DNA of 64,000 nt, from NCBI GenBank assembly GCA_964017235.1, contig OZ024934.1, positions 88,564,706 through 88,628,705 of the forward strand, read 5' to 3'. Shown in pieces: positions 1,131 to 55,018 of this stretch. Within the stretch, counting starts at the first letter, position 1, and each line of letters starts with the position of its first letter. Origin of the DNA: Sabellastarte sp. h YS-2021. Its lineage: Eukaryota; Annelida; Polychaeta; Sabellida; Sabellidae. The notes beneath the pieces are model-generated. The model searched no databases. It had not been told where the DNA came from and saw nothing but the letters and a program-made list of their open reading frames with translations. Position numbers and translations under genes: made by a program.

Positions 1131-1194
1131 CTAAAATATTGCAGCTAGCTTGATCAGATTTTCACAAAATGTAAATGGACAGGAAAGCCAAAAG

Positions 1195-4090
1195 GAACAT
1201 CAGCGCTGCAGTGAGGGTGGTACCATTATACCTGGGTCTAATGGTAACACCGCTAATAGTTGGGGAGCATTTATTATTTCCTCGATTACAATTTTAAGAA
1301 CTACTTTTTACCGAACTCATACCTAACTAAATGGGTGAATGCTAAGCTCTGTATAGTGGTACAGTGGGACCTGCCTCCTCGCTAGTTCTTCCCTGGTGGT
1401 ACAGTGGGACCCCACCTCCTCTCTAATTCTTTCCTAGTGGTACAGTGGGACCTGCCTACTCCCTAGTTCTTGCCTGGTGGCACAGTGGGACCCACCTCCT
1501 CGCTAGTTCTTCCCTGGTGGTACAGTGGGACCCACCTCCTCTCTGCTTCTTCCCTAGTGGTACAGTGGGACCTGCCTCCTCCCTAGTTCTTCCCTGGTGG
1601 CACAGTGGGACCCACCTCCTCTCTAGTTCTTCCCTAGTGGTATAGTGGGACCTGCCTCCTCGCTAGTTCTTCCCTGGTGGTACAGTGGGACCTGCCTACT
1701 CCCTAGTTCTTCCCTGGTGGCACAGTGGGACCCGCCTCCTCGCTAGTTCTTCCCTGGTGGTACAGTGGGACCTGCCTCCTCGCTAGTTCTTCCTTGGTGG
1801 CACAGTGGGACCCGCCTCCTCTCTAGTTCTTCCCTGGTGGTACAGTGGGACCTGCCTCCTCCCTAGTTCTTCCATGGTGGCACAGTGGGACCCACCTCCT
1901 CTCTAGTTCTTCCCTAGTGGTATAGTGGGACCTGCCTCCTCGCTAGTTCTTCCCTGGTGGTACAGTGGGACCTGCCTCCTCTCTAAATTTTCCCTAATGG
2001 TACAGTGGGACCTGTCTTCTCTCTAATTCTTCCCTAGTGGTACAGTGGGACCCACCTCCTCTCTGCTTCTTCCCTAGTGGTACAGTGGGACCTGCCTCCT
2101 CCCTAGTTCTTCGCTGGTGGTACAGTGGGACCCACCTCCTCTCTAGTTCTTCCCTGGTGGTACAGTGGGACCTGCCTCCTCCCTAGTTCTTCCCTGGTGG
2201 TACAGTGGGACCCACCTCCTCGCTAGTTCTTCCCTGGTGGTACAGTGGGACCCACCTCCTCTCTGCTTCTTCCCTAGTGGTACAGTAGGACCCAGTCCTG
2301 CCAAACTACTTGCCTACTTGCAAATCCATCCCTGGTGGCACAGTGAGACCCACCTCTGCCCTAATTCTTCCCTACTTCATGAATTCTTCCCTACTGGTAC
2401 AATGGGCCCTACCTCCTCTCCACTTTCTCCTTTGTGGTACAGTGGGACCCAATCCTGACAAGCTACTTCACTACATGCAAATTGTTCCCTGGTGGCAAAG
2501 TGGGATCCACATCTGCCCAACTCCTTCACAATTTTTCCCACGTGGCACATCTGGACCTGCCTCCTTTCTGGTTCTCCCCATGGTACAGTGGGACCCATCC
2601 CTGTTAAACTTCTTCCCCACATGAAAAATGTATTCCTAGTTGCACAGTGGGCCCCACTCATGCACAAATTCCATACTTCATGAATTTTTGCCTAGTGGTA
2701 CAGTGGGTCATGCCTCCTCTCTAATTCCACCCTGATGGTACAGTGGGACCGATCCCTGTGAAACTTCTTCCCCACATTCAAATTAATATTCCTAGTAGCA
2801 CAGTGGGCCCCACTCCTGCACAAATTCTTCCATACTTCATGATTTCTTCCCTAGTGGCAAGTCCCTACTTCCACTGTACCACTAGGGAAGAACTAGAGAG
2901 GAGGCGGGTCCCACAGTACCACCAGGGAAGAACTAGCGAGGAGGCAGGTCCCACTGTACCACCAGGGAAGAACTAGAGAGGACATGGGTCCCACTGTGAC
3001 ACTAGGAAGAAATCGTGAAGTAAGGAAGAACTAGAGAGGAGGTGGGTCCCACTGTGCCACTAGGGAAGAAATCTTGAAGCAAGGAAGAACTAGGGCAGAA
3101 GTGGGTCCCACTGTGCCACCATGGATGAAATTGCATGCAGGGAAGAAGTTTGGCAGGGGTGGGTCTCACTGTACCACTAGGGAGGAACTAGAGAGGAGGC
3201 AGGTCCCACTGTGCCACTTAGAAGAAACTGTGAAGTAGGGAAGAACTGGGGCAGGAGTGGGTCTCACTATGTTCCCAGGGACGAATTTGCAGGTGGAGAA
3301 GAAAATGGACAGGGCTGGGTCCAACTGTACCACTAGGGAAGAACTAGAAAGGACATGGGTCCCACTGTGACACTAGGGAAGAAATCGTGAAGTAAGGAAG
3401 AACTAGAGAGGAGGTGGGTCCCACTGTGCCACTAGGGAAGAAATCTTGAAGCAAGGAAGAACTAGGGCAGAAGTGGGCCCCACTGTGCCACCATGGATGA
3501 AATTGCATGCAGGGAAGAAGTTTGGCAGGGGTGGGTCCCACTGTACCACTAGGGAGGAACTGGAGAGAATGTAGGTCTCACTGTGCCACTAGGGAAGAAT
3601 TAGAGAAGAGGTGGGTCCCACTGTGCCACTAGGGAAGAAATCGTGAAGTAAGAAAGAACTAGGGAAGGAGTGGGTCCCACTGTGCCACCATGGATGAAAT
3701 TGCATACAGGGAAGAAGTTTGGCAGGGGTGGGTCCCACTGTACCACTAGGGAGGAACTAGAGAGGAGGCAGGTCCCACTGTGCCACTTAGAAGAAACTGT
3801 GAAGTAGGGAAGAACTGGGGCAGGAGTGGGTCCCACTGTGAAACCAGGGACAAATTTGCATGTAGGGAGGAAGTTTGGCAGGGGTTGGTCCCACTGTGGA
3901 TGAACTAGCGAGGAGACAGGTCCCACTGTACCACTAGTAAAGAACTTAAATATTTTTCATGAAATAATAATTGCTCTTTCCTGGGTCTCACTGTGCCACT
4001 TGGCGTTTGTTAAACGGGTCTCACTGTACCACTGGCACCATTAGACCCAGGTGTAATGGTACCCTCTCCTCTTTCTTCGCTGAACCAGGT
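1195..4090 (+). mobile_element. Foldback element FB1 with 40-bp minisatellite arms
   Basis: The terminal inverted repeats are 1219-1245 and 4037-4063. Both read GGTACCATTA.ACCTGGGTCTAATGGT in inverse orientation with one mismatch. Inside, a left arm (about 1346-2850) is a tandem array of a 40-base unit containing TGGTACAGTGGGACC, spaced exactly 40 bases from 1441 to about 2280 and irregular after that. At about 2851-2885 the repeat flips and the right arm (to about 3935) is the same repeat in inverse complement. No transposase is visible. The architecture matches foldback elements (Drosophila FB, Galileo, sea urchin TU), in which long inverted arms are built of subrepeats. It is a near-identical inverted copy of 46356-49203. 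The long open frames rich in VQWDPP and SSLVV are repeat artefacts. Confidence 0.75.
1346..2850 (+). repeat. 40-bp minisatellite (left arm of FB1)
   Basis: The unit is TGGTACAGTGGGACC followed by TGCCTCCTC.CTAGTTCTTCCC. Starts at 1441, 1481, 1521, 1561, 1601, 1641 and 1681 give an exact 40-base period. Unit variants (TACAG/CACAG/TATAG; CCTGCC/CCCACC) alternate in a pattern suggesting 80-base and longer amplification steps. Confidence 0.9.
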
Positions 4091-4518
4091 CCTCAGGAAA
4101 GCTCGTCTCTGAGTAATTCTGTCCTTGTTTTGGAAACAAAATGGTCGCCATATCACATCATTAATGCCAAATAGGAGGGTGATCATGTCAAAAAGGCCTT
4201 ATATCTCGCTTATAATTGTTTCTAGGGCTTCAAATTATGAAAACTACTTGTAAGAAATCATGGCCTGTGAATCTTTTGTAGAACATCTTGTGGTCCTCTA
4301 TACTTCTTATAACGGACGTTGTTCCTAAGATTTTCTCAAATCTCAATGTCATTGGCCATTTACCGGTACCTGCAGGCTGGGGTTCTTGCCTGCTGAGGCT
4401 GGCTATTTTTGTTCCTGAAAACCACAGTACTGTAAATTTTTGTGAGCCTTCATTGTAATAGAAGTCACAGCATACATTTAACTTGTTTGACTGATGGATG
4501 GATGCTTTTGTTTTTCAG
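4091..4518 (+). other. Intron sequence without recognised features
   Basis: This is the tail of the intron before the first visible eIF4G2 exon. It ends in a pyrimidine-rich acceptor (TTTTGTTTTTCAG, 4506-4518). I see no repeat family or coding potential in it. Confidence 0.5.
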
Positions 4519-8023: not shown

Positions 8024-11000
8024 AGAAATTTCCTTGTGGACGCGATAACTCAAAAACAAATTAATATTTTTTTTTCAAACTTGGTACACATGTTAAGGGT
8101 GCCCAAAGGAAGATCCCTATTTTAAGGTGACCTTAAACTCCCAGTAAAAAAGAACTTATGGCCACCTTAAGGTCAGAAATTGGACTTTTGGCCACTTAGA
8201 GCCTTGTAGGTCACAAACTATGATGCTCAGCTGGCTGAAATTTTACCTGACAACACATTAATATGTTCTTAGTACATGTGCCGAAAATCACGACTTTAAG
8301 TTGAGGAGAAAATTGTGTTTGAGGCCCATAAATACCCCCACTTAGGGATTTTTTGCTATACTTTTCATATATTTTGCCCTATAATTTGGAAGTGGTAATT
8401 CTGATGAGTCTCAAACTGCGCTAGGTATAACTTTGATATGTAATCCTTGTCTGTAGAAAATTTTAGGGCTGTAGGTTTACCCAAAGGGGTCGACTTAAGG
8501 TCTCAAAAGTGCACACAGAGACCCAATTTATGCACTTTTTGCCACTTTCAAGCACTGTAGCTTTCAAACTATGTCTCTCATCTAAGTTAAATATAATCTG
8601 GGAATATATCTATGTGTTTTCTTATATGTGCCCCAACATTTAGGCCTTTAATAGACAGTTAACCTGTGTATCAGGACCATAAACACCCACCCGAGTGACC
8701 CTTATAAGACATTTTTCACATCTTTTTCCCTGTAACTTGGAAATGGTAAGTCTGAGAAGTTTCAAACTGTATTAGATATATATTCTGTGTGTAATCTTAG
8801 TATGTAACAGATTTTAAGTCTGAAGCTTTAATTTTGAAGGTCAAATTGAGGTCTCTAAAAGGCTCCCAAAGACCCAATATTTGGACTTTTTGCTACTTTT
8901 AAGCCCTGTGACTGTCAAACTATGTGACTGATAGAGCTCAAATCCTATCTGGGAAGATATTAGTATGTTATTTTTATATGTGCCAAAAATTAAGGCTTTA
9001 AGAAGACATTTAACCTGTGTATGAGACCATAAATCCCCACCCGAGTGACCATTTTTAGACATTTTTCACATATTTTTCCCTGTAACTTGGAAATGGTAAG
9101 TCTAAGAAGTTTCAAACTGTATTACATGTATATTCTATGTGTAATCTTAGTATGTGACAAATTTTAAGTCTGAAGCTTTAATTTAAAGGCCACATTTAGG
9201 TCTCTAGAAGGCCCCATAAAGACCCAGTATTTGGACTTTTTGCCAATTTTAAGGCCTGTGACTGTTAAACTATGTGACTGATAGAGCTGAAATCTCATCT
9301 GGGAATACATTATTATGTTCTTTTTACATGTGCCAAAAATCAAGGCTTCAAGTAGACATTTAACCTGTGTATGAGGACCTTAAACACCCACCTGAGTGAC
9401 ACTTTTAAGACATTTTTCACATATTTTGCTCTGTAACTTGGAAATGGTAAGTCTGAGAAGTTTCAAACTTTATTAGATACATATTCTATGTGTAATCTTA
9501 GTATGTAACAAATTTTAAGTCTGAAGCTTTAATTTGAAAGCCACATCGACTTTGGACTTTTTACCACCTTTAAGCCCTGTGACTGTTAAACTATGTGATT
9601 GATGGAGCTGAAATCCCATCTGGGAATACATTATTATGTCCTTTTTACATGTGCCGAAAATCAAGGTTTTTAGTAGGCATTTAACCTGTGTATGAGGGCC
9701 ATAGACACTCGCCCAAGTGCCTTTTTTGACATTTTTTCCGTATTTTGCCCTGTTATTTGGAAATGCTTAGTGTGACAAGTCTTAAACTGTATTATATATA
9801 ATTTTTGTTTGTTATGTATGTCCCCCAAAAAGTTTCAGATCTGTAGTTTAATTGCTAAGGTCTCTTTAACAATTGTAAAATGCCCACAGAAACCCAATTT
9901 ATGGACATTATGCCACTTTAAAGCCCAGTAACTGTCAAACTATGTGGGTTATAGAGCTGAAATCTTTGAATTTTTCAAAGGAAATGCCTGTCTATTTAAA
10001 TTTTGATTATTAATAATGTTATGGCTATCTTAGTCTTTTAAGAACTTATTTTTGTGTGTTATACCTCTGCTTGCTGAGTTTTTAACTTTTTAAAATGAAA
10101 CTGGTTAAACATATTCAAGTAGACAAAATGGACACTTTAAGTGAGCTTTAAGTCCCAATATTAATGAAATTATATCCTTATGTAGTAAAACTAGGGGATT
10201 TTTAACCCTCAACTAGCCCAGTTTTATTCAACTTGCCTCAGTTAATTTTGACACAGCTCCTACAGTTATGAACTCATTTCAGTTGATAATCACATACTTA
10301 AAATTCTCAATTCTTTTTGTATTTGAGTACCCCTTTTATATAGATTGTTTGTTTACCATTTATCCCCACCTCTGGGACCTCCAGCTATATTGAGTGACAC
10401 TAAATAAACAAAGGTATTTAATGATATCAGATGAGAAACAAAGAACTCAATGGGGTTGCAGATCTTGTGTAATAGTGAGAGAGGTGTGGAGAAGGGGAGA
10501 GGGGTGGGGGTGGGAGGTAGTGGGCTTCATTACATATAACACAAAGGGGAGTCAGAACTGAGATTGTGTCACATATTTAGGTTGCATATATATGGACCAC
10601 ATATACAGGTATAGAGGAAATGAATAACTGAAAACAATTTGCAAATTCTAAAAATAATATAATAAAATAATAATATAAATAATTTTTTTTTAAATAATAT
10701 TTTATTTGTGAACAAATATAGAAACAGATATGCGCTTTTGGGATTATGAATTTTAGAATGGACATTGAATCATCAATCATTTAAATACTTTGAAGGAAGA
10801 TTGAAAAGTATGATGAGTTGAGTTAAAATAATATTTTATTTGTCAACAAATATAGAAACAGATATGCTCTTTTGGGATTATTATTTTAGAATGGACATTC
10901 AATCATCAATCATTTAAATACTTTGAAAATAGGTTTAGAGTTATCATTGCAGGAAGATTGAAAATATAATTTGAGTTATGTATTCGGTGTCTGGGGATAC

Positions 11001-14000
11001 ACCATCTTCCTTGGGAAGATATAAACAGAGTAGATTGATGTGCTGAAGTTCATATAATAATGGGTAATTATGTTTTAAAAAATTCCCGATCAAAACCTGT
11101 GGCGTGAGTGATGACCTGTCTGGGGATATGTTGGCGCCGAGTTGGCCCAATCTAGTTTATATATTTGCTTATAAATTACAGCTTATTAGTCAGTGTTAAA
11201 TGAAAAAGCAAAAGTGACAATAATATTAAGTCAGATGTTTATGTAAAGTAAAAGACTGGTAGGAATTGTCTTTACCTTTTCGGCACAAGTTGTTCTGTCA
11301 AAAACAAGTTTTTACGGCATATAGAGAGGACTTCATTTTCACATCAGGAGTCACTTTACAACTGCTGTGCATTCCTCTATCCCTCTAGCTACTTTTGAAA
11401 GCTTGAGTTTTGCAGATGTTTATAATTTTTTTTTATATATATTGATCAGATTCATCCCTGAGCTGGTGACATTCCTAATCCTCCGTTCACTGGACCAATC
11501 AGACACAGACAGGGAGAACGTAGGCAAGCTTATCACTGCACTCAAAGACGACAGCGTCTTTGACTCGGAGCTCTTCATGGAGGTCAGTGGGCCCCTTGTA
11601 CAATACAGACAAAAAAAGAGAAAAAAAAAATCCACGGCAGCCATCTTGTTAACACCCGTGGCAGCCATCTTGTTTTTCAGAATCAGGAGAAAAAGATTCC
11701 CTGGCAAGTTTTTCCAATGATGAATGTATCCTGCAAATTTGGAAGCTCTAGCTATAATAGTTTGAGATAGAAAGGCTTTGGTAAAAACGTGACGCACGCA
11801 CGGACAGAGGGCATTTTATAATCTCCCGTACCGGGCCTATCGGCCGGCGAGAGATAAAAATATGAGAAGATAGCTTGTGTATGTGATACATCAAAAGTTC
11901 TTTGTTTATGCCTATTTCTTTACATTTTCCAAAAAAAAAATCTAGTTCAGAACTAGGAGACTCCTATTTCTGCTGATTTTCATATAATGTAGACAGAGTT
12001 GCTTCTAGGATGCGTTTTCCGCGGGATCGCGCATTAATTCGCCTAAAAACGCGGATTTTCTTGGAGTCTGCGGTAACCAAATTATATGAGAACGCGTAAT
12101 ACACAAGGTGATGCGGGAAATATATGAAGCGAAAAGACGAGAGATCTAGAAAATCGAAACACTGCACGGATCTCGAGTTTGTCGAGGTTTTGATTTTTCC
12201 GTCGAAACGTTCTTCGAATAATGCCTGTAGACGATTGTGCTTTCGTGATTGTTTACAAACTCAAATATATTAGGAGGTACAGACAGTATTTGGACATATT
12301 ATACCCAAAAATATAAAATTAAGCTGAAAGTGGATGATTATATAAAAAATGGCTGCAAGAAAAACGAAACTTACAGTAGACTGGATTGTTACCACAACAG
12401 GCCATGGCAGTGAAGCCGGTGCTGACCCTACGGGCGTACGTATCTGTCGGAATTCCCTAGAAAAATATTTTACTGAATCAAAATTCACGGACAACTCATT
12501 AATATTAATGAGGTCACAGATTTTCGTGGTGGTTTTAATTCTTAATATTTTCTGGTTTAAGATCAAATACTAGATGGACAGACAGATGGACTACAGAGCT
12601 CATGTATGCGTAAAAAATATTTGACGATTCCATTGGATTTTTTAGCAATATTTTACTTGAAGAATTTGTGGACTACTCATTAATATTCATTAGGTCATGG
12701 TATTCTATGGGGTTTTCCAACATATTTGTATGAATTGATGGTGTAATGACTGAATTTGTGATGCCATGACTTCAGATGAAAACTTAAAACCATAATGCCG
12801 TGACAGGAGCCACTTTGATGTAAATAACCATTTTCAGTATTTTTTTAAATTCTACACTACACTCATTTTTGGTGGGACCTATAAATAGAGACTTTACGAA
12901 AAGCCTGGAAATGAGATTCTAATACTCACCACCAACCTCAAAATGAGGACATCATAGTTGTATTAGTGAAATAATTAATTTTCTAATCAAACATACATAA
13001 ATTAGAAAATTTTCACCCCCTTCAGGATTACCCTACAACACCTGGAGCCTGCAACCAGGCCCCAAAACCAGGTTCTGAGCAGGCTCCAAACCGGCTCTGA
13101 ACCGGGGGCTCCCCCTGTAAAGCCCAATAGTACCTTAGGGACCACAGACCTGAATATCTCAAAGCCTCTGATGAGACTGACAAAATATTAGCAGTCGAAA
13201 TACAATTTACACACAGTTAAATTATATCAGGCAGATAAACTATCTTATTATCCACCCTCAGTCTACGCATAAGCAGGAAGCAGATTTTTTCCTCCTTTTT
13301 TTTAAATTCTATCACTAGCCTTGAAGTTTATTTTTATTGGGCAAGACAATAAAAATTGACCACAAATTAATAGAAGTCGATCCACCGTTAAAAATGTCTA
13401 AATAAACTGTAAATGTAATTAAGCGTCCCGCAAGGGACGCTTGTTTGTGTATGGGAGAGCTTCTGGCTCCGCCGGCTCTGCCGGCTCCGCATTTTGTTTT
13501 CCTTATAACTCTGTAACCGTTAGGCGGATTCTTTTCAAATTTGGCAGGTTTAGGCAGTAGCCTTGGGGAATTTTTTTGAATATGCTGCAGTGACATTTCA
13601 ACCAATCAGAGAGGTCACATGACCAAAAATGTCTTTTTTCGATGGGGAAGCTTGTCCGGATGATAACTTGAAAGGAATTTTATCAATTCACCTGAAACTT
13701 GGCAAATACATTCATTCTATTAAAATCTGGAAATCATTAGATTTTGGCATTGATTGGTCAAGAAATGGCCGAGTAATTAATGATTAATTAATCATTACGA
13801 ATTTTCCAAATAAGGAAAACACAAAAATGCTTATATCTCGAAAACCGTGCTAGATAGAGCGATTTCGACGAAATTTTTGACCCGCAGGGTATCTCTGCGA
13901 AGTAGTTTTCCCAATTTTCAAAAAATTTTTGTCTCGCCCAAAATGGCGGCCATTTTGAATTTTCGAAATTTTCGCAAAAATTGCAAAACACAAAAATGCT

Positions 14001-17000
14001 TATATCTCAAAAACCGTGCTAGATAGAGCAATTTCGACAAAATTTTTGACCCGCAGGATTTCTCTGCGGAGTACTTTCCCAATTTTCAAAAAAAATTTTG
14101 TCTGGCCAAAAATGGCGGCCATTTTGAATTTTCGAAATTTTCGCAAAAATTGCAAAACACAAAAATGCTTATATCTCGAAAACCGTGCTAGATAGAGCGA
14201 TTTCGACAAAATTTTTGAATCGCAGGGTATCTCTGCAGAGTAGTTATCCCAATTTTGAAAAAATTTTTGTCTCGCCAAAAATGGCGGCCATTTTGAATTT
14301 TCGAATTTTTCGCAAAAATTGCAAAACATAAAAATGCTTATATCTCGAAAACCCTGCTAGATAGAGCGATTTCGACGAAATTTTTGACCCACAGGGTATA
14401 TCTGCAGAGTAGCCATGCCAATTTTCAAACAAAAAATTTCTCGCAAAAAATGGCGGCCATTTTGAATTTTCGAATTTTTCGCAAAATTGCAAAACACAAA
14501 AATGCTTATATCTCGAAAACCGTGCTAGATAGAGCGATTTCGACGAAATTTTTGACCCACTGGGTATCTCTGCAGAGTAGCCATGCCAATTTTCAAAAAA
14601 ATTTTATCTTGCCAAAAATGGCGGCCATTTTGAATTTTCGAATTTTTGCGCAAAAATTGCAAAACACGAAAATGCTAATATTTCGAAAACCGTGCTACAT
14701 AGAGCGATTTCGACGAAATTTTTTTATCTTCAGGGTATCTCTGCAGAGCAGCTATCCCAAAGAGCTTTCACTTGGTGAAGTTTCAGACCCATAGCTAATT
14801 GCTCACCTACTCAAAAAGAGTAAATGCGAATTACCTCTAAAAGTATTGCAGATGGCCAATTTTTCTCAAATAACTCATTCACCTACTTTTGGAAGAGCTT
14901 TCACATGGTGAAGTTTCAGACCCATAGCTAATTACTCACCTACTCAAAATGAGTAAATGCGAATTATCTCTAAAAGTATTGCAGATAGCCAATTTTTCTC
15001 AAATAACTCATTCACCTACTTTTGGGAGAGCTTTCACATGGTGAAGTTTCAGACCCATAGCTAATTATTTACCTACTCAAAATGAGTAAATGCTAATTAT
15101 CTGTAAAAGTATTGCGGATACCCAATTTTTATCAAATAACTCATTCATCTACTTGTGGGAGAGCTTTCACATGGTGAAGTTTCAGACCCATAGCTAATTA
15201 CTCACCTACTCAAAATGAGTAAATGCGAATTATCTCTAAAAGTATTGCAGATAGCCAATTTTTCTCAAATAACTCATTCACCTACTTTTGGGAGAGCTTT
15301 CACTTGGTGAAGTTTCAGACCCATAGCTAATTACTCACCTACTCAAAATGAGTAAATGCGAATTATCTCTAAAAGTATTGCAGATAGCCAATTTTTCTCA
15401 AATAACTCATTCACCTACTTTTGGGAGAGCTTTCACTTGGTGAAGTTTCAGACCCATAGCTAATTACTCACCTACTCAAAATGAGTAAATGCGAATTATC
15501 TCTAAAAGTATTGCAGATAGCCAGTTTTTTTTCAAATTAATCATTCACCTACTTTTGGGAGAGCTTTCACTTGGTGAAGTTTCAGACCCATAGCTAATTA
15601 CTCACCTACTCAAAATGAGTAAATGCTAATTATCTCTAAAAGTATTGCAGATAGCCAATTTTTCTCAAATAACTCATTCACCTACTTTTGGGAGAGCTTT
15701 CACTTGGTGAAGTTTCAGACCCATAGCTAATTACTCACCTACTCAAAATGAGTAAATGCGAATTATCTCTAAAAGTATTGCAGATAGCCAATTTTTCTCA
15801 AATTAATCATTCACCTACTTTTAGGAGAGCTTTCACTTGGTGAAGTTTCAGACCCATGGCTAATTACTCGTCTACTCAAAATGAGTAAATGCGAATTATC
15901 TCTAAAAGTATTGTAGATAGCCAATTTTTCTCAAATAACTCATTCACCTACTTTTGGGAGAGCTTTCACTTGGTGAAGTTTCAGACCCATAGCTAATTAC
16001 TCACCTACTCAAAATGAGTAAATGCGAATTATCTCTAAAAGTATTGCAGATAGCCAATTTTTGTCAAATTAATCATTCACCTACTTTTGGGAGAGCTTTC
16101 ACTTGGTGAAGTTTCAGACCCATAGCTAATTACTCACCTACTCAAAATGAGTAAATGCGAATTATCTCTAAAAGTATTGCAGATAGCCAATTTTTCTCAA
16201 ATTAATCATTCACCTACTTTTGGGAGAGCTTTCACATGGTGAAGTTTCAGACCCATAGCTAATTACTCACCTACTCAAAATGAGTAAATGCGAATTATCT
16301 CTAAAAGTATTGCAGATAGCCAATTTTTCTCAAATAACTCATTCACCTACTTTTGGGAGAGCTTTCACTTGGTGAAGTTTCAGACCCATAGCTAATTACT
16401 CACCTACTCAAAATGAGTAAATGCTAATTATCTCTAAAAGTATTGCAGATAGCCAATTTTTCTCAAATAACTCATTCACCTACTTTTGGGAGAGCTTTCA
16501 CTTGGTGAAGTTTCAGACCCATAGCTAATTACTCACCTACTCAAAATGAGTAAATGCGAATTATCTCTAAAAGTATTGCAGATAGCCAGTTTTTTTTCAA
16601 ATTAATCATTCACCTACTTTTGGGAGAGCTTTCACTTGGTGAAGTTTCAGACCCATAGCTAATTACTCACCTACTCAAAATGAGTAAATGCTAATTATCT
16701 CTAAAAGTATTGCAGATAGCCAATTTTTCTCAAATAACTCATTCACCTACTTTTGGGAGAGCTTTCACTTGGTGAAGTTTCAGACCCATAGCTAATTACT
16801 CACCTACTCAAAATGAGTAAATGCGAATTATCTCTAAAAGTATTGCAGATAGCCAATTTTTCTCAAATTAATCATTCACCTACTTTTGGGAGAGCTTTCA
16901 CTTGGTGAAGTTTCAGACCCATAGCTAATTACTCGTCTACTCAAAATGAGTAAATGCGAATTATCTCTAAAAGTACTGCAGATAGCCAATTTTTCTCAAA

Positions 17001-20000
17001 TAACTCATTCACCTACTTTTGGGAGAGCTTTCACTTGGTGAAGTTTCAGACCCATAGCTAATTACTCACCTACTCAAAATGAGTAAATGCGAATTATCTC
17101 TAAAAGTATTGCAGATAGCCAATTTTTCTCAAATAACTCATTCACCTACTTTTGGGAGAGCTTTCACTTGGTGAAGTTTCAGACCCGTAGCTAATTACTC
17201 ACCTACTCAAAATGAGTAAATGCGAATTATCTCTAAAAGTATTGCAGATAGCCAATTTTTCTCAAATTAATCATTCACCTACTTTTGGGAGAGCTTTCAC
17301 TTGGTGAAGTTTCAGACCCATAGCTAATTACTCACCTACTCAAAATGAGTAAATGCGAATTATCTCTAAAAGTATTGCAGATAGCCAATTTTTCTCAAAT
17401 AACTCATTCACCTACTTTTGGGAGAGCTTTCACTTGGTGAAGTTTCAGACCCATAGCAAATTACTCACCTACTCAAAATGAGTAAATGCGAATTATCTCT
17501 AAAAGTATTGCAGATAGCCAATTTTTCTCAAATAACTCATTCACCTACTTTTGGGAGAGCTTTCACTCTGTGAAGTTTCAGACCCATAGCTATTTATTCA
17601 CCTACTCAAAATGAGTAAATGCTAATTATCTGTGAAAGTATTGTGGATACCCAATTTTTATCAAATACTCATTCATCTACTTGTGGGAGAGCTTTCACAT
17701 GGTGAAGTTTCAGACCCATAGCTAATTACTCACCTACTCAAAATGAGTAAATGCGAATTATCTCTAAAAGTATTGCAGATAGCCAATTTTTCTCAAATAA
17801 CTCATTCACCTACTTTTGGGAGAGCTTTCACTTGGTGAAGTTTCAGACCCATAGATAATTATTCACCTACTCAAAATGAGTAAATGTGAATTATCTCTTA
17901 ATAGTATTGCAGATAGCCAATTTTTCTCAAATAACTCATTCACCTACCTTTGGAAGACCTTTCACACACGAAAATGAAAAATTGTGAATATCTCGGAAAA
18001 GCTATTTCTTCTGCTTTAATGCTCGGCGGGAGATACACACCACGGCATTGGTCTTGACAAAAATTTTTGTCTCCCCAAAAATGGTGGCCATTTTGAATTT
18101 TCAAAGTTTTTGCAAAACACAAAAATGCTTATATCTCGAAAACCGTGCTATATGGAGTGAACTCAACAAAATTTTGGACCTGCTGGGTATCTCTGCAGAG
18201 TAGCCATGCCAATTTTCAAAATATTTTTGTCTCGCCAAATATAGCGGACATTTTTAATTTTTTTATTTTTTGCAAAACACAAAAATGCTTATATCTTGAA
18301 AACCGTGCTAGATAGAGCAGACTGCGCTGACTTTGGTTGCCACAACAGTATAAGGCTAGAAACGAAGCATTTTCTTAATACTTTAGCACTCACCTTTATA
18401 TCCTTTTCGGGACGCTTTGTTTTTGCTATGCAAAAACATTATCTTTTTTTTTTGCGAGCGATCCTCTAGTTTTTATTAGTTTAAACTTATCATAAAGTCG
18501 TCCCCCAGAATTTTTAGCCCCTCCCCCACATTTTGTGTAGTGGTGGGGGATCGCCCCCACTTTTTGAAATTCCTAGAATCAACACTGTGTAGATAATCTT
18601 AATATCTTCTCGGGCTTTTAAGTACTACTCAGATGTTCTGGTTAAGTATTGTGTACTATCACCGTAACACCTTGTAACCATGGATTTGTTCCTATTTCCA
18701 GGGTTTCTCATGTGTCCTTGACCAGATGAAGTCTCTAGAAGCTGATGTCCCACTTGTAAAGTCCTACGTATCTAAGTTTGCGGCATATGCAGTATGTGGC
18801 GAGGTGGCAAGTCTGTCGGAGCTAGCATCATCACTGGAGAATGGGCGCCACTACCCACTGTTCCTCCTGTGTCTGCAGCAGATACACAAAGTGCAGGGAA
18901 AAGAGTGGTTGGTGGGAGTCTTCAATGAGAGCAGACTAGACCTTCAGAAGATGCTGCCAGGTAAGAGCCACATTGGTGGTAGAGCCGTCAAAACATCAAA
19001 AAATTTTAGTTTGATGTTAGTATATCTACAAACCGGCAAACTTTGCAATCTAGCTTGATCATCAAAGTAACACATTCAAAACCAGTAAAATACAAAATCT
19101 ACCAAAAAATCCTGTCACTTTTAGCCCACAGCTGGCTGTCGGGGTATTGTTTTCACCGATGTCAGGATGGGCGGGCGGCTGGAACAAGTTTGTCCGGGTT
19201 ATATCTCAGTAACCGTAAAGTGTAGGAAGTTGATACTTGGTAGGGACATTAGATAGGGGTTGTAGGTGTGCAACATTATGGTGTGACCTTGATTTGACCT
19301 TGCCAGAGTGACCTTGACCTAGAAAATCTTGTCTGGGCTATATCTCGGCAACTGTAAGGTTTAGGAAGTTGATACGTGGAAGGAACATTGGTTAAGGAGT
19401 GTAGGTGTGCAACGTCGTGGTGTGACCTTAATTTGATCTTTGACCTTGCCGTAGTGACCTTGACCTATAAAATCTTGGCTGGGCTATATCTCGGCCATCG
19501 TAAGGTATGGGAAGTTGATACTTGGTACTGACATTGGTTTCGGGGGTGTAGGTGTGCAACGTCATGGTGTGACCTTGATTTGACCTTGCCGTAGTGACCT
19601 TGACCTATAAAATCTTGTCCGGGCTATATCTCAGCAACCGTAAGGTGTAGGAAATTGATACTTGGTAGGGACATTGGTTAGGGGTGTAGGCGTGCAATGT
19701 TATGGTGTGAACTTGATTTGACCTTGCCAGAGTGACCTTGACCTAGAAAATCTTGTCCGGGCGGTATTTCGGCAACCATACGGTGTAGGACGTTGATACT
19801 TGGTAGGGACATTGGTTATTGTGTGTAGGTGTGGAACATCATGGTGTGACCTTGATTTGACCTTTAACCTTGACCATGAGTTTTAAAATCTTGCCTGGGT
19901 TATTTCTTTGATTCCATAAGGTGTAGAAAGTTGACACTTGATAGGGACATTAGGGGGTGCAAGTGTGCATCATGGTTTGACCTGTTTGCTCTGCCAAAGT

Positions 20001-26000: not shown

Positions 26001-29000
26001 TCTCGCTGGCCACGATGACTGGTAGCAGTTTGTAAATATACAGACATTTCTATTTATTTCTCAGTTCTTACTTATTGTTGGAGGCTAATATTTGCATATT
26101 TCTTTATTTTTATGCTATAGATCATTCTGTAAAATTCTGATTTTCCCACCTTAAGTATTTCGTGACTTTCGCGTGTTTTTAGCTTTCCTCGGTTCAGGCA
26201 ATTCTATTGTACGTCTTTTATTGCGTATAAAATGTCTCTCCATCAAGCAAATAAAGACAAACCGAGAGCTCAGAAATGCCGCCATTTTTGCTTCAGTTTT
26301 GATACACATAATTTCTGCCCTACCTGTAGGGAGGCTGGCAAGGGAGATGACCCCTGTGTCACCTTTGAAACCCCTTGTGAAATTTGCACGTCTTTCACAG
26401 ATGAGCAATTACAGAAAATTTCAAACAGGAAGCGGTATCTGAAAAAGCAAAAAGCGACAACTAGTTCCAAAGATGAACTAGATCTTTTGGGTGAAGGCGA
26501 TGGGGATTCCTTCACTGGATCCAATGCAGACCTTGAGTGTGCTGCTGATAGCCTTTTTACCTCGCCCCCCTGTCCACAACCTCTTGCCTTCAGTTCCCTG
26601 TCCTTGAAAACACCAGCCAAGACTATTACACCCACGCCTGGCACGGCTTTGCAAAATAAAATCCAGAAAAACATAGAAAAATCACTGGGTGATTCCTTAA
26701 ATATACATTTACAGCAGCAAATGGGTACCTTCCAGGCATCCATGTTGGAAGCTTTTCAGTCACTCCGAGAGGAGTTGGCTGCAAAACAGAAAGTCGAGGT
26801 AGAGTCCTCGCTTCTTGCTTCAAAACCTGGCTCGTCCAGTAACACTGCTGCCCCTCTGGATTTGCCCCCTCCGAGATCTGGTACTAACATCCCAAGCGAG
26901 GCTATGGATGTGGACTACGGTCCAGCACTCCCTCCTCGTCTAGTATCTACCCAACTTTCCTCGGATCAGTACGTTGCCCCCTCTGAAGGTCATCCCGAAG
27001 AGGTCTCGTACTCTCACAAAAAGCAAAGCCATAAGCAGCCAGTTGACCCGAGCTCTGCTTCGGACCAACTAAATGAGGATTCCGATGAACCTCGGATCCC
27101 TTCTTCTAGATCCAAAAAAACACTCTGACAAGAGCAAACATAAATCAAGATCTAGATACGTGTCATTTTCCTCAGAGGAGGATCACTCCCCTGTAGCCAG
27201 ACACAGGTCTTCTAAGCCCTCTAGGGCTCAGCCCTCAGGAGTAGCTTCTGATCAAGACCTCCCACAACATGATCCAGACCCCCCTTATTATAGGGAAGTA
27301 GCTTTGTCTGACATGCCCTCACAATACTCTGAAGAAGTAGACACCTTCAGGCGTATTCTGTCTCTCCCTGACCCCAGGGAATCTATGCCCAGGTCGTCCA
27401 CTTCAGTGTTGGGTCTGGATGATGAAAAAGGCCGTCAAGAGCTCAGACCTAGAGGTCCTTCCTCTATCCTTCCACTTAGCTCAGTTATCAAGGACGCCTT
27501 TGATAAATTCCAACATGACTTTAAGGCTGCCAATTTATCTGAGGGAAAATATGTCAAGCCTCCTCCCTCAACTTCAAAGTGGTACAAGGTGGGACAGCCA
27601 ACTTTTCAGGACAAAATTCAGGAGTTGAATACGGACTTTGCTAAGATCTGTATTACTCCTAGACCTTCTGGGTCCCCAGTAGCCAGAGTTCCCCTGCCAG
27701 TTCTCAAGGAGCTGGAACTTCAGGCTAGACAAAATATCTCTACCCTCAACTTCACCGCTGCTTTTGCCAAAACCTCCTCTTCTTGCAATGCTTCATTGGA
27801 AAAATGCCAACATAGCATCAAGTCTACGGTCAAGAAGATAAAATCTCAGATTCAGAAAGGTGCCAATCCTGAGAAAGCGGCAAAGCGCGGATATGAGGAA
27901 GTAGCTGACTACTTAGATTTTTGGAACAAGACAGTACTTGTTCAACACAGGGCCCTCACTTGTCTCAGCAAATCTCTAGCCCATATTTTGCAGAGGGAAT
28001 TATACTCTATGGCTAACACCGGCTTGCTCAGGCGCGAAGCCGAGATGACTCTATTACACCCACAATTAGGAGAAACGAGACGTCAAGAACTCAGGAACTC
28101 GTCCTTTTGGGGCCCTTCCTTGTTCGAGTCTCAATTAGTGAAGGAAGGTGAGGACTTCCTTCTCAAAAAAGGCACCTCAAAAGATTCTCAGGGTTTTGCA
28201 CCCTACCAGAATAAGCCCTTTCGTGGTCCCCACAAGAAAAGAGGCTCCTACAGGAAACGCCCCTATGGGGGCAATACCTCTCAAAGCAGTAACCAGTCCT
28301 TTCCCTCGGGAAGAGGAAAATCCAACTTCAGAGGCTCCAGGGGTCGTTTTCGACCCCACAATAGAGGAAGGGGGCGTGGAAACCCCCCTCCCCAATGACT
28401 CCTCCAAAGCCTCACTCAGTCCACCAGTAGGAGGTCGCCTCCGTTCTTTCAGGAGAGACTGGCTCACAAACAAAGGTTCTCAAAACGTGTTAAACATTAT
28501 CACCAATGGCTACGTTCTGCCATTCCGTTCAAAGCCAAACTTGATCAGATTTCCTCTGATTGTGTCAGAGTACAAGGCCCAACAAAAAGACCAAGCCTTG
28601 GCCACTTGTATCCAGTCTCTCCTGTCAAAGAACGCTATCGAAAGGGTAGACAATGTAAAATCTCTAGGGTTTTACAGTCGCCTGTTCCTAGTACCCAAGC
28701 CTCACCAAAGGTGGAGGCCAGTCATAGACTTAAGCAGGCTGAATACTTTTCTACACGTAGAAAAGTTCAAAATGGAAACTCCAGAGTCCATCAGGACCTC
28801 CCTGATTCCAGGGGAGTGGGTATCGTCGATAGACCTGTCGGACGCTTACCTGCACATCCCCATCCACCCAAGCTCAAGGAAATACCTAAGGTTTTGCTAC
28901 AAGGCTCAGGTGTTCCAGTTCACCTCCCTCCCGTTCGGACTAGCCACAGCCCCCCAGGTCTTTACAATGATCGTAAAGGAAGTGAAACTAATGGCCCTCT

Positions 29001-32000
29001 CAAGAGGACTCAGAATTCACCAATACCTGGACGACTGGCTGATCAAGTCCCAGTCTCAGGAGGAAGCCCAAGTGAACACTCAGGCAGTAGTAGAACTGAC
29101 TCAGTCCTTGGGGTGGATAATAAATCAGGAAAAATCAGAACTGAAACCTACTCAGGTGTTTTCGTTCGTGGGCTACGAATACCACCTAGATTCAGCCCTT
29201 GTAAAACCCACTCAAGAGAGATGGCTCAAACTTCAGGATTTGATCCTACGACTCAAGTCAAAACGTGTTTTGACTGCAAGATGTTTGATGTCTCTAATTG
29301 GGTTGCTAGCCTCAACGGAGAAAATGGCCCCGGAGGGACGCCTTCACATGAGGCCCTTTCAGTTTCACCTCAAGGAGCACTGGAGATATCCTCAGTCGCT
29401 GGACAACCTCCTTCCCTGGACAGAAGCCATTGCAGCCCACCTAGATTGGTGGCAAAATCCCTCCAATGTGATGAAAGGTGCAGACCTTCATCCCAAAGAC
29501 CACAGTATCCAACTCTTTACCGACGCCTCAAACGAAGGTTGGGGCGCTCACTTAGACCAAAATTCTACAAAGGGTCTGTGGTCGGATCGGGAAAAAAGGC
29601 TACACATAAATGTCCTAGAATTGAAGGCGGTCTCCCTGGCCCTTCGAGACTTCAAGGACCAGTGCCAGAATCAAACAGTGTTGGTTGCGACGGACAACTC
29701 AACAGTGGTAGCCTACATCAACAAACAAGGAGGAACACACTCGGCAGAGATGTGTGCTCTCCTGTGGAAGATCATGACCTGGTGCCATCACTACCACATA
29801 ACATTGAAAGCCAGGCACATTCCAGGGTGCCTGAATGTGATGGCCGACCTGCTATCCAGGTCCAACCAAGTGCAGTCAGCAGAATGGTCTCTGCACCCAC
29901 AGGTCTTCAAACAGATCTGCCAAAAGTGGTTCACCCCTCATGTAGACTTATTTGCCACTCACCTGAACCACAAACTCCCTCTATACGTGTCTCCTATCCC
30001 AGACCCAAAGGCCTGGGACATAGATGCTCTGAACATAAACTGGACCAACCTCACGGCCTATGCGTACCCTCCTACGGCTCTCCTTCACAAGGTGATCCAA
30101 AAGATCAGGCAATGCCAGTGCCTGATCATCGTAATAGCCCCAGGCTGGCCAGGGATGCCCTGGTTTTGGGACCTAGTGCAGCTCTCAACAGAGATCCCAC
30201 TGCAACTCCCAGTGTCAACAACCCTACTCAAACAGTCCCACAAGCTGGTGTTCCACAACAACCCCCAGCACCTGAACCTCCACGCCTGGTGTCTAGGAGC
30301 GGACAACTCCAAGAACAAGGCTTCTCTGTGGAGGTGGCAGAGAGAATTGCTGCCCCTCAGCGGTCATCAACAAGGACCATCTACAAGTCAAAGTGGGCCC
30401 TATTTGAAAAATGGTGGAGAAAATTCGGTGGACTTCTCCACTCCATCTGTGAAACAAATCTCAGATTTCTTCATGTATCTGTACCAAGACTTAAACAGGC
30501 GCCCCTCGACCATTGATGGTTACAGGACTGCAATCGTTGACACTTTGGGCCCAACGGCCCAACATATTGCACACAATGCAGACCTTCATAGGTTACTCTC
30601 CAGTTTTCACAGGGATCGTCCTAAAAGTTCCAGAAATTTACCCAAGTGGAACCTTTCTGTTGTCCTTAACGAGCTCACCAAAGCACCATTTGAGCCCATG
30701 AAAGACTCAGACCTCAAACATCTTACTCTCAAAACTGCTTTCTTGCTAGCCTTGGCCTCCGGCAAGCGCTATGCCTGGGTCGCTAACAAAGTAGCTAATT
30801 TAGGCCAATGGGAAAAGGTAGCCTTGTTCCCTTCTTCTGATTTCATAGCCAAAAACCAACTAGCAAGAGAAGGTTCTCAAAGTGTGTCACCAGTGACTAT
30901 TCCTGTTTTGACTACCATTGTAGATAGACAGTTTAAAGAAGACAGGACCCTGTGTCCCGTGCGGGCCCTGAGGTTTTATTTGGACCGAACTAAGGACCTG
31001 AGAGGGTCTCGTTCTCTTCTTTTCATCTCCTTTAATTAATTTATTTGGGGTTTTACGTCGCTTTCAACACTGTACAGGTCATATCACGACGGGTAGTTGG
31101 AAGGGCAGAGGAAACCAGTACATATAGTTCGCTAGGGTTCTGTACTGTAAACTGCCGACCAATGGCAAGCAACTACCAGCTTTCCCACTTACGGCCATGA
31201 CGGGGATCGAACCCCGGCCGCAGAGGTGGGAGGCGAGAGTGTTACCACTCTGCCACCGTGGCCCCTCACATCTCCTTTAAGAAAGGACATACCTCAGACA
31301 TCAGACCCGCTACACTCTCTTCATGGTTGAAACAAACCATCTTACTTTGTTACAAACAAGCAGATCAACAAGCCTTGGACTTGGTCCAAGTCAAAGCGCA
31401 TGACATCCGGGCCTTCGCGGCCTCTAAGGCCTTTTACGGTGGGGTATTGGTGGACCAAATCATGCAAGCCTGTCACTGGAAAGCTCACAACACATTTACA
31501 AATTTTTACCTAAAAGACCTTACTTGGTCGGACACCAACAACAATTTGTACCTGGGACCCGTAGTGGCTGCACAACAAGTCCTAGATCCTTCCCCTCAGA
31601 CCAGTTGTCCTCGGAAAGAAAAAAAAGGGGGGGGGGGGGGGGGGGGGGAGCACATCCGCTACAACCAAGTCTTCAGGAGTCTTTCCCAGGATCTAGGTAT
31701 TCCTTTACCTTCAAGATGTTACGGGTAAGGTCATTTTATCCTTTAATTATCAAGTAATTTCTATTAAGGACTTATTTAGTTGTCATTAATCTCATATCAG
31801 GTTTAAAAAAAAAAAAAAAAAAAAATTTTATGAGAGGCCCAACCACTGGGTTGGTCAGTCACACGTGAAGGGCCCTTTGGGACCCTTAGACCTCGAAGTG
31901 AGCACTGCTGCACTTCCGTCCTACAATCAAACATCTAGACAGTTTTAGCACTGTCTCTCATTTACTTAGGTTTTTGGCTCGTTACAGGCCCGGCTTTCGG

Positions 32001-44168: not shown

Positions 44169-44389
44169 ATATATATTTTATGTCCTTTCATGAACAGCTA
44201 TAATGAAAATGGTATAATGATTAAAAGTATCTAATTTTATTGAAACTATTGGAATTGTTTTGATCACTATGCAGTATGCAGAGTATACAGAAGTCATTTT
44301 TATTGTGTTAATACATCCTATCAAATGGACAATTGCTTTACCGGTCGGCGCGACCAGTCCCGCCAAACGCCAGACCTGGTTCCAAAAGA

Positions 44390-46335
44390 AACCTCAGCGC
44401 TGAAAGGAGGGTGGTACCATTATACCCAGGTCTAATGGTAACACCGCTAACAGTTGGGGAGCATTCATTATTTCCTAGATTACAATTTTAAGAACTACTT
44501 TTTACCGAACTCATACCTAACTAAACGGGTGAATGCTAAGCTCCCTCTAGTGGTGCAGTGGGACCTGCCTCCTTGGTATTTCTTCCCTAGTGGTAGAGTG
44601 GGAACTGCCTCCTCTCTAGTTCTTCCCTAGTGGCACAGTGGGACCTGCCTCCTCTCTAGTTCTTCCCTACTAAACGGGTGAATGCTAAGCTCCCTTTAGT
44701 GGTACAGTGGGACCTGCCTTTTGGTATTTCTTCCCCAGTGGTACAGTTGGACCCAGCCCTGCCCATCTTCTTCCCCACATACAAATTCGTCCCTAGTGAC
44801 ACAGTGGGACCCATTCCTGCAAAACTTCTTCCCTACTTAACAATTTCTCCCAAGTGGCACAGTGGGACCTGTCTCCTCTCTAGTTCCTCCCTAGTGGTAC
44901 AGTGGGGCCCACCCCTGCCAAACTTCTTCCCTACATGCAATTTCATCCCTGGGGGCACAGTGGGACTCACTCTTGCCCTAGTTCTTCCTTACTTCACAAT
45001 TTATTTCCTAGTGGTACAGTGGGACCTGCCTCCCTGCTACTTCTCCCCCAGTGGTACAGTGGGACCAACCCCTGCCAAACTTCCTAACTACATGCAAATT
45101 CGTCCTAGTGGCACAGTGGGACCCATTTATGCCCTAGTTCTTCACTACTTCACAATTTCTTCCCTAGTGGTACAATGGGACCTGCCTCTACTCTAATTCC
45201 TATTGGTACAGTGGGACCTGCCTCCTCTCTACTTCTTCCCTGGTGGTAGAGTGGGACCTGAATGTTATCCTCATGTAAAGCTGGATAATAAGCATGAATC
45301 TCTTATAAAGCATTCATCTGACCAGGTATTTGTAGACTGGTCAAATACTACTGTGGGTGGAACGTCATCTGCTGACAAAAAGCCTCCTATTGACCCTGTT
45401 GCAAATGTGTAATTCCCAGCATGTAAGACCAAATTCACTGATGGAAGCTGTCTAGAGACCATGTTAACTGCCCCCTAAGACTCCTATCGACCCTTTTTCT
45501 AATGTGGAATTGCCAGCTTCTGAAACCAAGTCCACTAATGGGACTTGTCGAGAGACCACATCAAGTGCCCCTAAAGCTCCTATCAACCTTGTTTCCAACA
45601 TTGAATTGCAGGCATGTAAAACCAAGTCCGCTGATGGAACCTGTCTACAGATGCCCTCAACTGACCCAAAAGCTACTATTGACAGTCATTTGAAAATTTT
45701 GTAGAGTGTGAACCCAACCCCCAATGTGGAACATGTAGTGAACCAGCAATGATGGTTTTGGAAACAATTCACTCAAAGAATGCTTGTCTTGTCTGTAACA
45801 ATGTACCACTAGGGAGGAAGTACAAAGGTGCAGGTCCCACTGTGCCACTATGGAAGAAATTGTGAAATAGGGAAGAAATTGGGCAGGAATGGGTCTCACT
45901 GTGCCACCAGGGACGAATTTGCATGTAGGGAGAAGTTTGGCAGGGGTGGGTCCCACTTTACCACTAGGGAAGAACTAGAGAGGAGGCAGGTCCCACTGTG
46001 CCACTAGGAAAGCACTAGTGAGGAGGCAGGTCCCACTGTACCACTGGAGAAGAACTAGAGAGGAGGCAGGTCCCACTCTGCCACTAGGGACGAATTTGTA
46101 TGTGGGGAAGAAGATGGGCAGGGCTGGGTCCAACTGTACCACTGGGGAAGAACTAGCGAGGAGGCAGGTCCCACTGTACCACTAGGGAAGCACTAGAACT
46201 ATTTTCAATGAAATAATTATTGCTCTTTACTGGGTCTCACTGTGCCACTTGACGTTTGTTAAACGGGTCTCACTGTACCACTGGCACCATTGGTGCCCTC
46301 TCCTCTGTCTTCGCTGAACCAGGTCCTCGAACCTC
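44390..46335 (+). mobile_element. Foldback element FB2 with coding-like loop
   Basis: The left terminal repeat 44413-44439 (GGTACCATTA...GGTCTAATGGT) matches FB1. The right terminal repeat near 46280-46300 is shortened by an internal deletion. The left arm 44545-45250 and right arm 45800-46200 are inverted arrays of the ~40-base unit with ACAGTGGGACC. Between them is a non-minisatellite loop (45250-45795) with protein-like repeats. It abuts FB3 head to head at about 46336. Confidence 0.7.
45250..45795 (+). other. Coding-like cargo in the loop of FB2
   Basis: Three or four ~105-base direct repeats read as a ~35-residue protein repeat (for example NVELPASETKSTNGTCRET then NIELQACKTKSADGTCLQ), with conserved TKS..GTC and a PID/PIN..SN core. 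Stops and a frame change break it. The open frame 45504-45704 is one surviving part. I do not recognise the protein. It could be a captured host exon or a relic of a transposon protein. Confidence 0.45.
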
Positions 46336-49230: not shown

Positions 49231-49359
49231 TTGCCACTGTGCAGTGTTGCAGTGGGACATGCCTTTTGCACAGTGGGACCCGCTCAATGAGCATACAGTT
49301 TTTCATGAAATTATAAATTTATTATTAAATGGCAAGCATAACTATCACTATCTATTCTG

Positions 49360-51300: not shown

Positions 51301-51445
51301 CTAGGTGCGTGTTTCTGGATAAAGTTGTTTCTTTGGTTTTGATTGGGAACCAGCTTTTCATTTTGAAATAATTCGCACTCTTATTGTTACAGTGAGCCCC
51401 GAGGCCGGCTGTGCATTCCTCCCGTCAGCGATGATCTTTCTTTTG

Positions 51446-54852: not shown

Positions 54853-55018
54853 CTGAAATATAAGCAAAGAACAAGAAGGTTCATTATTATTAATGTTATT
54901 GCACACTGCAAGTGTTATGGGACCTTATAGCGACATATACAGAGTAGCATATATTTTTGAAAACAATTGCACATTAATTAAGCATAAGCAAATGTAACCA
55001 TACCTTACAATATCAATG

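Follow-up and report, generated by a model that had tools for sequence, protein, structure and literature searches.

The 64,000-nt window analysed here, from the sabellid annelid Sabellastarte sp. h YS-2021 (contig OZ024934.1, positions 88,564,706 to 88,628,705), contains three foldback elements whose arms are opposed arrays of a 40-bp minisatellite unit, two belonging to one subfamily (A; copies 1 and 3) and one to another (B; copy 2). They are members of a mobile foldback family, a conclusion supported by 8-bp target-site duplications, by paralogous empty sites and by a coding relative that shares their left end. It is quite probable, judging from sequence, that the family is non-autonomous and moves by cut-and-paste, and that a large relative of the Kyakuja-Dileera-Zisupton (KDZ) superfamily encodes the transposase that moves it with an 8-bp stagger. 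We favour this origin because two loci with an open exon (L053 on contig C1 and L054 on contig C11) have B-type left ends, because the gene matches the CxC4 domain, and because the C1 locus has a candidate right end followed by the expected duplication.

Boundaries were set by aligning the ends of genome-wide copies, in which the left ends that match from their first bases start with CAAAAG and most right ends stop at CCTC. The foldback elements of the window and their parts are as follows:

1181-1188, plus strand: left target-site duplication AGGAAAGC, repeated at 4095-4102
1189-4094, plus strand: complete subfamily-A foldback element, copy 1; 2,906 bp, CAAAAG...CCTC, from the alignment of ends of genome copies
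1189-1354, plus strand: conserved left terminal region of copy 1, 166 bp
1219-1246, strand not applicable: left subterminal imperfect palindrome GGTACCATTATACCTGGGTCTAATGGTA of copy 1, from the sequence
1356-2857, plus strand: left arm of copy 1; 40-bp units at 1356-2292, followed by some four higher-order units of 157 bp
2851-2882, plus strand: central 32-bp junction of copy 1
2871-3935, minus strand: right arm of copy 1; left-arm units reversed, with periods of 40, 58 and 156 bp among others
3945-4094, plus strand: conserved right terminal region of copy 1, 150 bp
4034-4063, strand not applicable: right subterminal imperfect palindrome GGCACCATTAGACCCAGGTGTAATGGTACC of copy 1, from the sequence
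4095-4102, plus strand: right target-site duplication AGGAAAGC
44383-46328, plus strand: subfamily-B foldback, copy 2; both ends present, right side without matching duplication
45262-45790, plus strand: loop of copy 2; a decayed transposon-gene piece, resembling part of the first ~152 residues of the open frame at L053
46343-49233, minus strand: second subfamily-A element, copy 3; right tip lost (~18 bp), remaining duplication candidate CCACTGTG at 49234-49241
49234-51445, minus strand: remnant of a third, related foldback family, C; opposed arrays of 30-bp units, with the end CAAAAGAAAGATCATCGCTG at 51426-51445

Flanks of the aligned genome copies diverge immediately outside the CAAAAG and CCTC boundaries, and the boundaries of copy 1 were reproduced in 20 other A copies (in L036 only after a one-base shift). 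Because the element starts with CAAAAG and ends with CCTC, copy 1 runs from 1189 to 4094 and not from 1195 to 4090 as in the initial annotation, which had likewise misplaced copy 2 (as 44390-46335) and copy 3 (as 46336-49230) by a few bases. The GGTACCATTA...GGTCTAATGGT motif that it took for the terminal inverted repeats is subterminal, lying ~30 bp inside each end, and is an imperfect palindrome in itself. All three copies it described are real, but copies 2 and 3 are adjacent and nested and are therefore not at unrelated sites. The junction between these two (46329-46342) is filler without duplication, as after end joining, and copy 3 is embedded in the family C element, where its insertion cuts off the right tip of the latter. 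The 10 bases to the left of copy 2 (44373-44382), GACCTGGTTC, comprise its left 8-mer CCTGGTTC and the two preceding bases, and equal part of the family's right end GAGGACCTGGTTCAGCG; an insertion of copy 2 into the right end of a neighbour was considered and rejected, as the bases farther out misfit (GCCA instead of GAG).

In the whole genome (1.786 Gb in 647 contigs, numbered C1, C2 and so on), a left-end pattern covering A and B (20 bases, three open positions) had 152 matches compared with 0 for the reversed-pattern control; 38 of the left ends in the genome are exact B-type. Target-site duplications were scored in 32 copies with two ends, and 26 of these have an exact 8-bp duplication, four have one mismatch (L039, L050, L016 and L026) and two have none. 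The 32 consist of 27 copies together with L049, L050 and L051, which were tested as one set, L047 with L052, where AAAAATAG was seen by eye to flank both sides, and L012, counted as a failure; L036 was counted as exact after its one-base shift. The count excludes L010, L011, L015, L017-L023, L025, L027, L028, copy 3 and the second left end in L036, each of which has one end absent, degraded or beyond the locus; L001-L008 are shortened forms of the places covered by the window and by L029-L035, and L009 is copy 2. At the ninth base, 7 and 6 of 22 copies match, against 5.5 expected by chance; the middle of the duplications is AT-rich, and they have no strong motif. A search of the window and the fetched loci for empty sites gave, for four of 22 copies (L031, L032, L041 and L046), sequence that runs across the join of the two flanks; these sites are paralogous, not allelic. 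The sites for L041 (window 14323-14473, 96.0%) and L032 (L047:2537-2688, 95.4%) are gapless; each of these copies has 55 such sites, and both lie by eye in 169-bp satellite units. The empty site for L031 lies in its own locus (91.3%, 2 gaps) and that for L046 at window 10066-10212 (88.3%, 4 gaps). Mobility, which the initial annotation had deduced from matching ends, is thus borne out by the 8-bp duplications and empty sites that it proposed looking for (duplications of 7-9 bases were anticipated), and by the existence of a coding relative whose left end is the same. Satellites adjoin one another at window 13816-17965, one with a 169-bp unit (13816-14760) and one with a 133-bp unit (24 copies, 95% matches), the former being a repeated target of foldback elements.

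The connection to a gene begins with the loop of copy 2. Its conceptual translation matches, besides decayed remnants of its own kind, an open 492-codon frame at C1:37854008 (L053) and a 456-codon frame at C11:15287787 (L054), in both cases at 47% over 60 residues. Sequence identity between these two loci is complete over the 2,001 bp compared, and further on the C11 frame diverges at about residue 428-442, at or past the presumed splice donor (about residue 430). A genome search with the L053 frame recovered the two near-identical copies, three relatives on C3 at 38-41% and weaker ones elsewhere. Loops of this kind (~529 bp in copy 2) were scored at 40 of 91 candidate genome places, with 85-100% identity over the matched part, and one such place, C7:68963909-68965261, has a longer gene remnant with pieces at 59-66% and one at 42%. 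Because of the matches to the open frames and this longer remnant, the B loop is taken to be the decayed remnant of a gene like that at L053. At positions 2001-2241 of locus L014, a short interspersed element (SINE)-like insertion lies inside the B loop, flanked on either side by ATGATGGTTTTGG; split matches suggest that several B copies share it.

Both open frames lie downstream of a B-type left end on the same strand, 19.1 kb downstream on C1 (left end at 37873449, minus) and 18.5 kb on C11 (left end at 15269153, plus). The layout on C1 led us to expect the C11 end ~19 kb upstream, although this expectation was recorded only after the listing; the estimated chance of finding a B-type end on the right strand within 25 kb upstream is ~3 in 10,000 per locus. 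In the 201 bp read at each place, 157 of the 158 bases inward from CAAAAG are shared by the two left ends, whereas the flanks outside differ, and they are therefore two insertions and not one duplicated segment. The 8-mers outside them are CGTATTTC (C1) and CACATTTG (C11). On C1, a candidate right end CAAGTCCTC is followed by an exact CGTATTTC (C1:37816976-37816992, minus), 56.5 kb from the left end, giving an implied element of 56,466 bp in which the left end was read and the right end pattern-matched. The same CAAGTCCTC forms the tip of copy L026, and the estimated chance of such a right-end match within 100 kb, with all eight bases right, is ~0.002. The initial annotation proposed looking for an autonomous relative with the same ends and a transposase; this large element has the same left end and a gene with CxC4, its right end being placed by pattern only and at C1. 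At two further places, C1:119219902-119244649 and C3:109392580-109419195, left and right ends in matching orientation are separated by 24.7 and 26.6 kb; these are possible further large elements, and the search with the L053 frame gave no match inside either.

From HMGXB3/Zisupton-like proteins, a segment of the form VxVYxxxCxxC...NFNxxxLLxL was expected to follow the L053 exon, although this expectation was recorded only afterwards. In 1.5 kb of sequence read on C11, the exon VSVYIQECVKCKHQIKDFAVGVGLLNFNNKILLTLRFCKWIRLSIK lies between a splice acceptor and a GT donor. A spliced 82-residue piece, made of the end of the first exon and this next exon, matches PF18717 CxC4 (29.6 bits, E 6.9e-7, cut-off 26.9), which Pfam describes as a cysteine cluster 'associated with KDZ transposases'. 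Zisupton makes 8-bp duplications (PMC12730594) and Kyakuja 7-bp ones, and Zisupton genes have many exons (PMC9297572), in agreement with the 8-bp duplications and the split gene seen here.

Several observations weigh against a KDZ origin. The spliced 447-residue query falls just below the CxC4 cut-off of 26.9 (25.6 bits, E 1.2e-5), and with the first exon alone no Pfam match exceeds a cut-off. A genome search for the KDZ domain PF18758 gave 0 matches; this null is no proof of absence, because the search was silent in 14 control genomes too (0 matches) and introns split the gene. Work on Pristionchus reports that no target duplications were detected for its Zisupton elements (PMC9297572). The C1 right end is a match, with one mismatch, to a 17-base pattern that had 532 genome matches compared with 38 for its reversed control, 100 of them listed; no right end for C11 is among those 100 of 532, the one-mismatch matches on C11 lying outside them, and a longer B-type right-end pattern with at most one mismatch has no match near C1:37.82-37.87 Mb. 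The outermost bases of the elements are not mutual inverted repeats (CAAAAG vs GAGGAC), and the two copies without duplication are the B copy of the window and L012 (CAATTTTC vs AAATCCTC).

Among other origins, an unlikely one that nevertheless survives best is a Mutator-type foldback, comparable to FB4, Tm1 and Tetris, with the KDZ-like gene as cargo or neighbour. The frame at L053 contains a CxCx6CxH motif that by eye resembles a SWIM motif, which occurs in Mutator-like element (MULE) transposases too, and duplications of 8 bp fall in the range known for such elements. On the basis of their transposases, foldbacks have been placed with Mutator, Tm1 carrying a Phantom-like one (PMC3169594), and Tetris has 8-10 bp duplications, its authors suggesting Mutator (PMC4079207). 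However, the duplications here stop at 8 bp, with the ninth base near chance, and so differ from the 9 bp of Tm1, the gene downstream of the shared left end matches the KDZ-associated cluster, and the two exons scanned contain no MULE match. Those two exons have no THAP, P or hAT match either, which counts against a P- or hAT-type foldback enclosing an unrelated gene, an improbable origin even though P and hAT elements create duplications of 7-8 bp; the duplications here lack a strong motif, and the ends are unlike the hAT type. For P, Galileo provides a precedent for long repetitive arms, with 7-bp duplications (PMC3573991).

Bivalve Helentron/HINE elements carry tandem repeats and end hairpins, and the asymmetric ends, subterminal hairpins and tandem-repeat core seen here resemble HINEs; such an element is very improbable all the same, since no duplications of this kind are expected of Helentrons, against the 26 of 32 exact 8-bp ones counted here. 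Spread by segmental duplication or as a satellite is equally hard to sustain: six A-type left ends do stand on one strand at 4.9-6.0 kb spacing at C2:51861286-51888033 (51.86-51.89 Mb), as if an insertion had been tandemly duplicated, but at many loci exact boundaries with differing flanks, together with duplications and empty sites, refute it for the copies read with duplications.

Under the KDZ reading, a transposase of this type from the large relative would recognise the ends, including the shared subterminal palindrome, and act in trans, so that the element would be excised and reinserted with an 8-bp staggered cut. The 40-bp units of the arms may serve as repeated binding sites for the transposase, the arms would lengthen and shorten through slippage or unequal exchange, and the loop may flip through recombination between the arms. 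We lean slightly towards a wider version of this proposal, in which a foldback lineage born of KDZ/Zisupton has a giant gene-bearing parent of ~56 kb with the same ends that would feed several minisatellite-armed hairpin families with 40-bp and 30-bp units, the units being arrays of transposase sites and the loop being flipped.

The structure of the arms agrees with part of what had been described for the window. Tandem Repeats Finder places 40-bp units on one strand at 1356-2292 of copy 1 and their reverse complement from 2871, with opposed arrays in copies 2 and 3 too, and in 19 of the 20 elements examined the unit core (at most three mismatches) has a single strand switch point, the twentieth (L051, 439 bp) having one arm only; the opposed arrays noted by the initial annotation are therefore confirmed in all three copies. 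Diverged units in opposed arrays, not precise inverted repeats, make up the arms, and the hairpin of a kilobase or more credited to each copy holds for copies 1 and 3 in gapped form only, with best arm-to-arm matches of 1.1-1.2 kb at 63-68% identity (the best opposite-strand self-match of copy 1 is 1.1 kb at 65-68%), and fails for copy 2, at 0.39 kb and 69-80%. The corresponding self-match in L048, a long A copy, is 2.9 kb at 68-71%. When copy 1 was folded with DNA parameters, 903 of 1,093 pairs spanned >300 bases, a figure for the native sequence only.

Across the 316 terminal bases of 21 A copies, mean identity is 98.9% over 210 pairs, 106 of them identical; the comparison was ungapped, and insertions and deletions pull the minimum down to 89%. 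Such high identity suggests recent activity. Total length in 21 A copies ranges from 1,560 to 6,491 bp despite near-constant ends, and because of this the ends are taken to be young and arm length to change much faster than end sequence. Of 24 A copies, 23 have the 32-bp central junction and one, L030b, lacks it.

The orientation of the B loop varies. Of 40 scored loops, 20 lie within 7 kb of a listed B-type left end, 11 in gene orientation and nine in the opposite one; the coordinates for this count were copied by hand, and of the opposite cases only L016 and L026 were read with both ends. On a tree of 20 loops (four opposite, one of unknown orientation) three orientation changes are needed, two of them forced by well-supported branches, although 115 of 500 shuffles were as low, so that the orientation label is not clearly clustered; for some rows, the right end, or a left end at a distance of 8-9 kb, supplied the orientation. 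This pattern fits recombination between inverted arms. Among the 23 A copies with a junction, all have it in one orientation and no flip was seen.

Similar architectures are known from other superfamilies. The family shares with Zisupton/KDZ the 8-bp duplications, the multi-exon gene and the CxC4 cluster, but differs in its non-autonomous, minisatellite-armed foldback build, the assignment itself being drawn from CxC4 and not from the catalytic domain. Drosophila FB4 has another unit and other ends, makes 9-bp duplications and is kin to Mutator. As here, it is non-autonomous, and its long inverted arms and its loop both vary in length (PMC4022104). In Tm1 of root-knot nematodes, too, the arms consist of short tandem units whose number varies, short motifs that are not inverted lie beyond the inverted part, and MITE-like and coding members share ends, while its unit (~14 bp), its 9-bp duplications and its Phantom-like transposase set it apart (PMC3169594). 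Galileo, of the P superfamily, has foldback-like arms that are lengthened by tandem repeats in one subfamily and secondary transposase sites in the arm repeats, but a P-type transposase with a THAP domain and 7-bp duplications (PMC3573991, PMC3688188). Tetris of Drosophila virilis is a foldback with tandem repeats in its arms and duplications that include 8 bp within their 8-10 bp range, and differs in its 220-bp unit and in the Mutator affinity its authors suggest (PMC4079207). Foldback builds have been reported in Mutator and P, and an independent origin through growth of inverted repeats has been proposed (PMC3169594).

In the open-access literature we found no earlier report of a KDZ/Zisupton foldback with minisatellite arms; the only co-mention of foldback and Zisupton found there concerns Drosophila FB4, with Zisupton outside the main text, and foldback, Zisupton and KDZ are absent from the main text of a bivalve transposon survey (PMC10294476) and of the Mercenaria genome paper (PMC8905726). 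If a KDZ origin is correct, a third superfamily would have acquired foldback arms beside Mutator and P, and minisatellite arms would evolve repeatedly, perhaps wherever a transposase gains from many binding sites, an idea that could be tested in a recent family of high copy number such as this. The elements scatter tandem and inverted repeats over the genome, and a loop that appears to have flipped at least twice would be a natural record of recombination between palindromic arms.

Beyond A and B, a left-end pattern that excludes both had 63 genome matches compared with 0 in the control, and 56 of the 63 read CAAAAGAAAGATCATCGCTG, the end of family C. The opposed arrays of this family consist of 30-bp units with the core CACAGTGGG, with a higher-order unit of 128 bp, and a gapped alignment shows similarity between its right-terminal region and that of A. 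Other end variants gave four matches against one for the reversed control, among them two copies of CAAAAGTAACTTCATCGCTG (C1:183266218 and C8:108274092), which may represent a further family. Among the longest A copies, which were examined for coding capacity, L048 lacks a frame of 120 codons, and the frames of at least 110 and up to 224 residues in L047, L049 and L050 were set aside as repeat-derived in appearance by eye. L047 (1735-6310) and L049 (3399-7637) have long unit-free stretches that were taken for nested insertions, and L050 has a long stretch without recognised units.

Elsewhere in the window, positions 55017-56233 have inverted arms of 56-71 nt, 94-96% complementary and ~1 kb apart, with 29-bp palindromic units CAGTCATTACGCGTAATGACTG, and look like another hairpin element. 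At 58404-60989, 42-bp units TACCCAACGGCTGTGTACGCAAGAT occur in both orientations, with inverted pairs of up to 120 nt at 70-86% complementarity, possibly a fourth foldback-like family. A reverse transcriptase/RNase H element at 26232-31728 (RVT_1, E 7.1e-20) is DIRS-like by eye, and its tyrosine-recombinase-like end, also judged by eye, has no Pfam match. A sodium/hydrogen exchanger exon (PF00999, E 4.8e-11) lies at 62078-62566.

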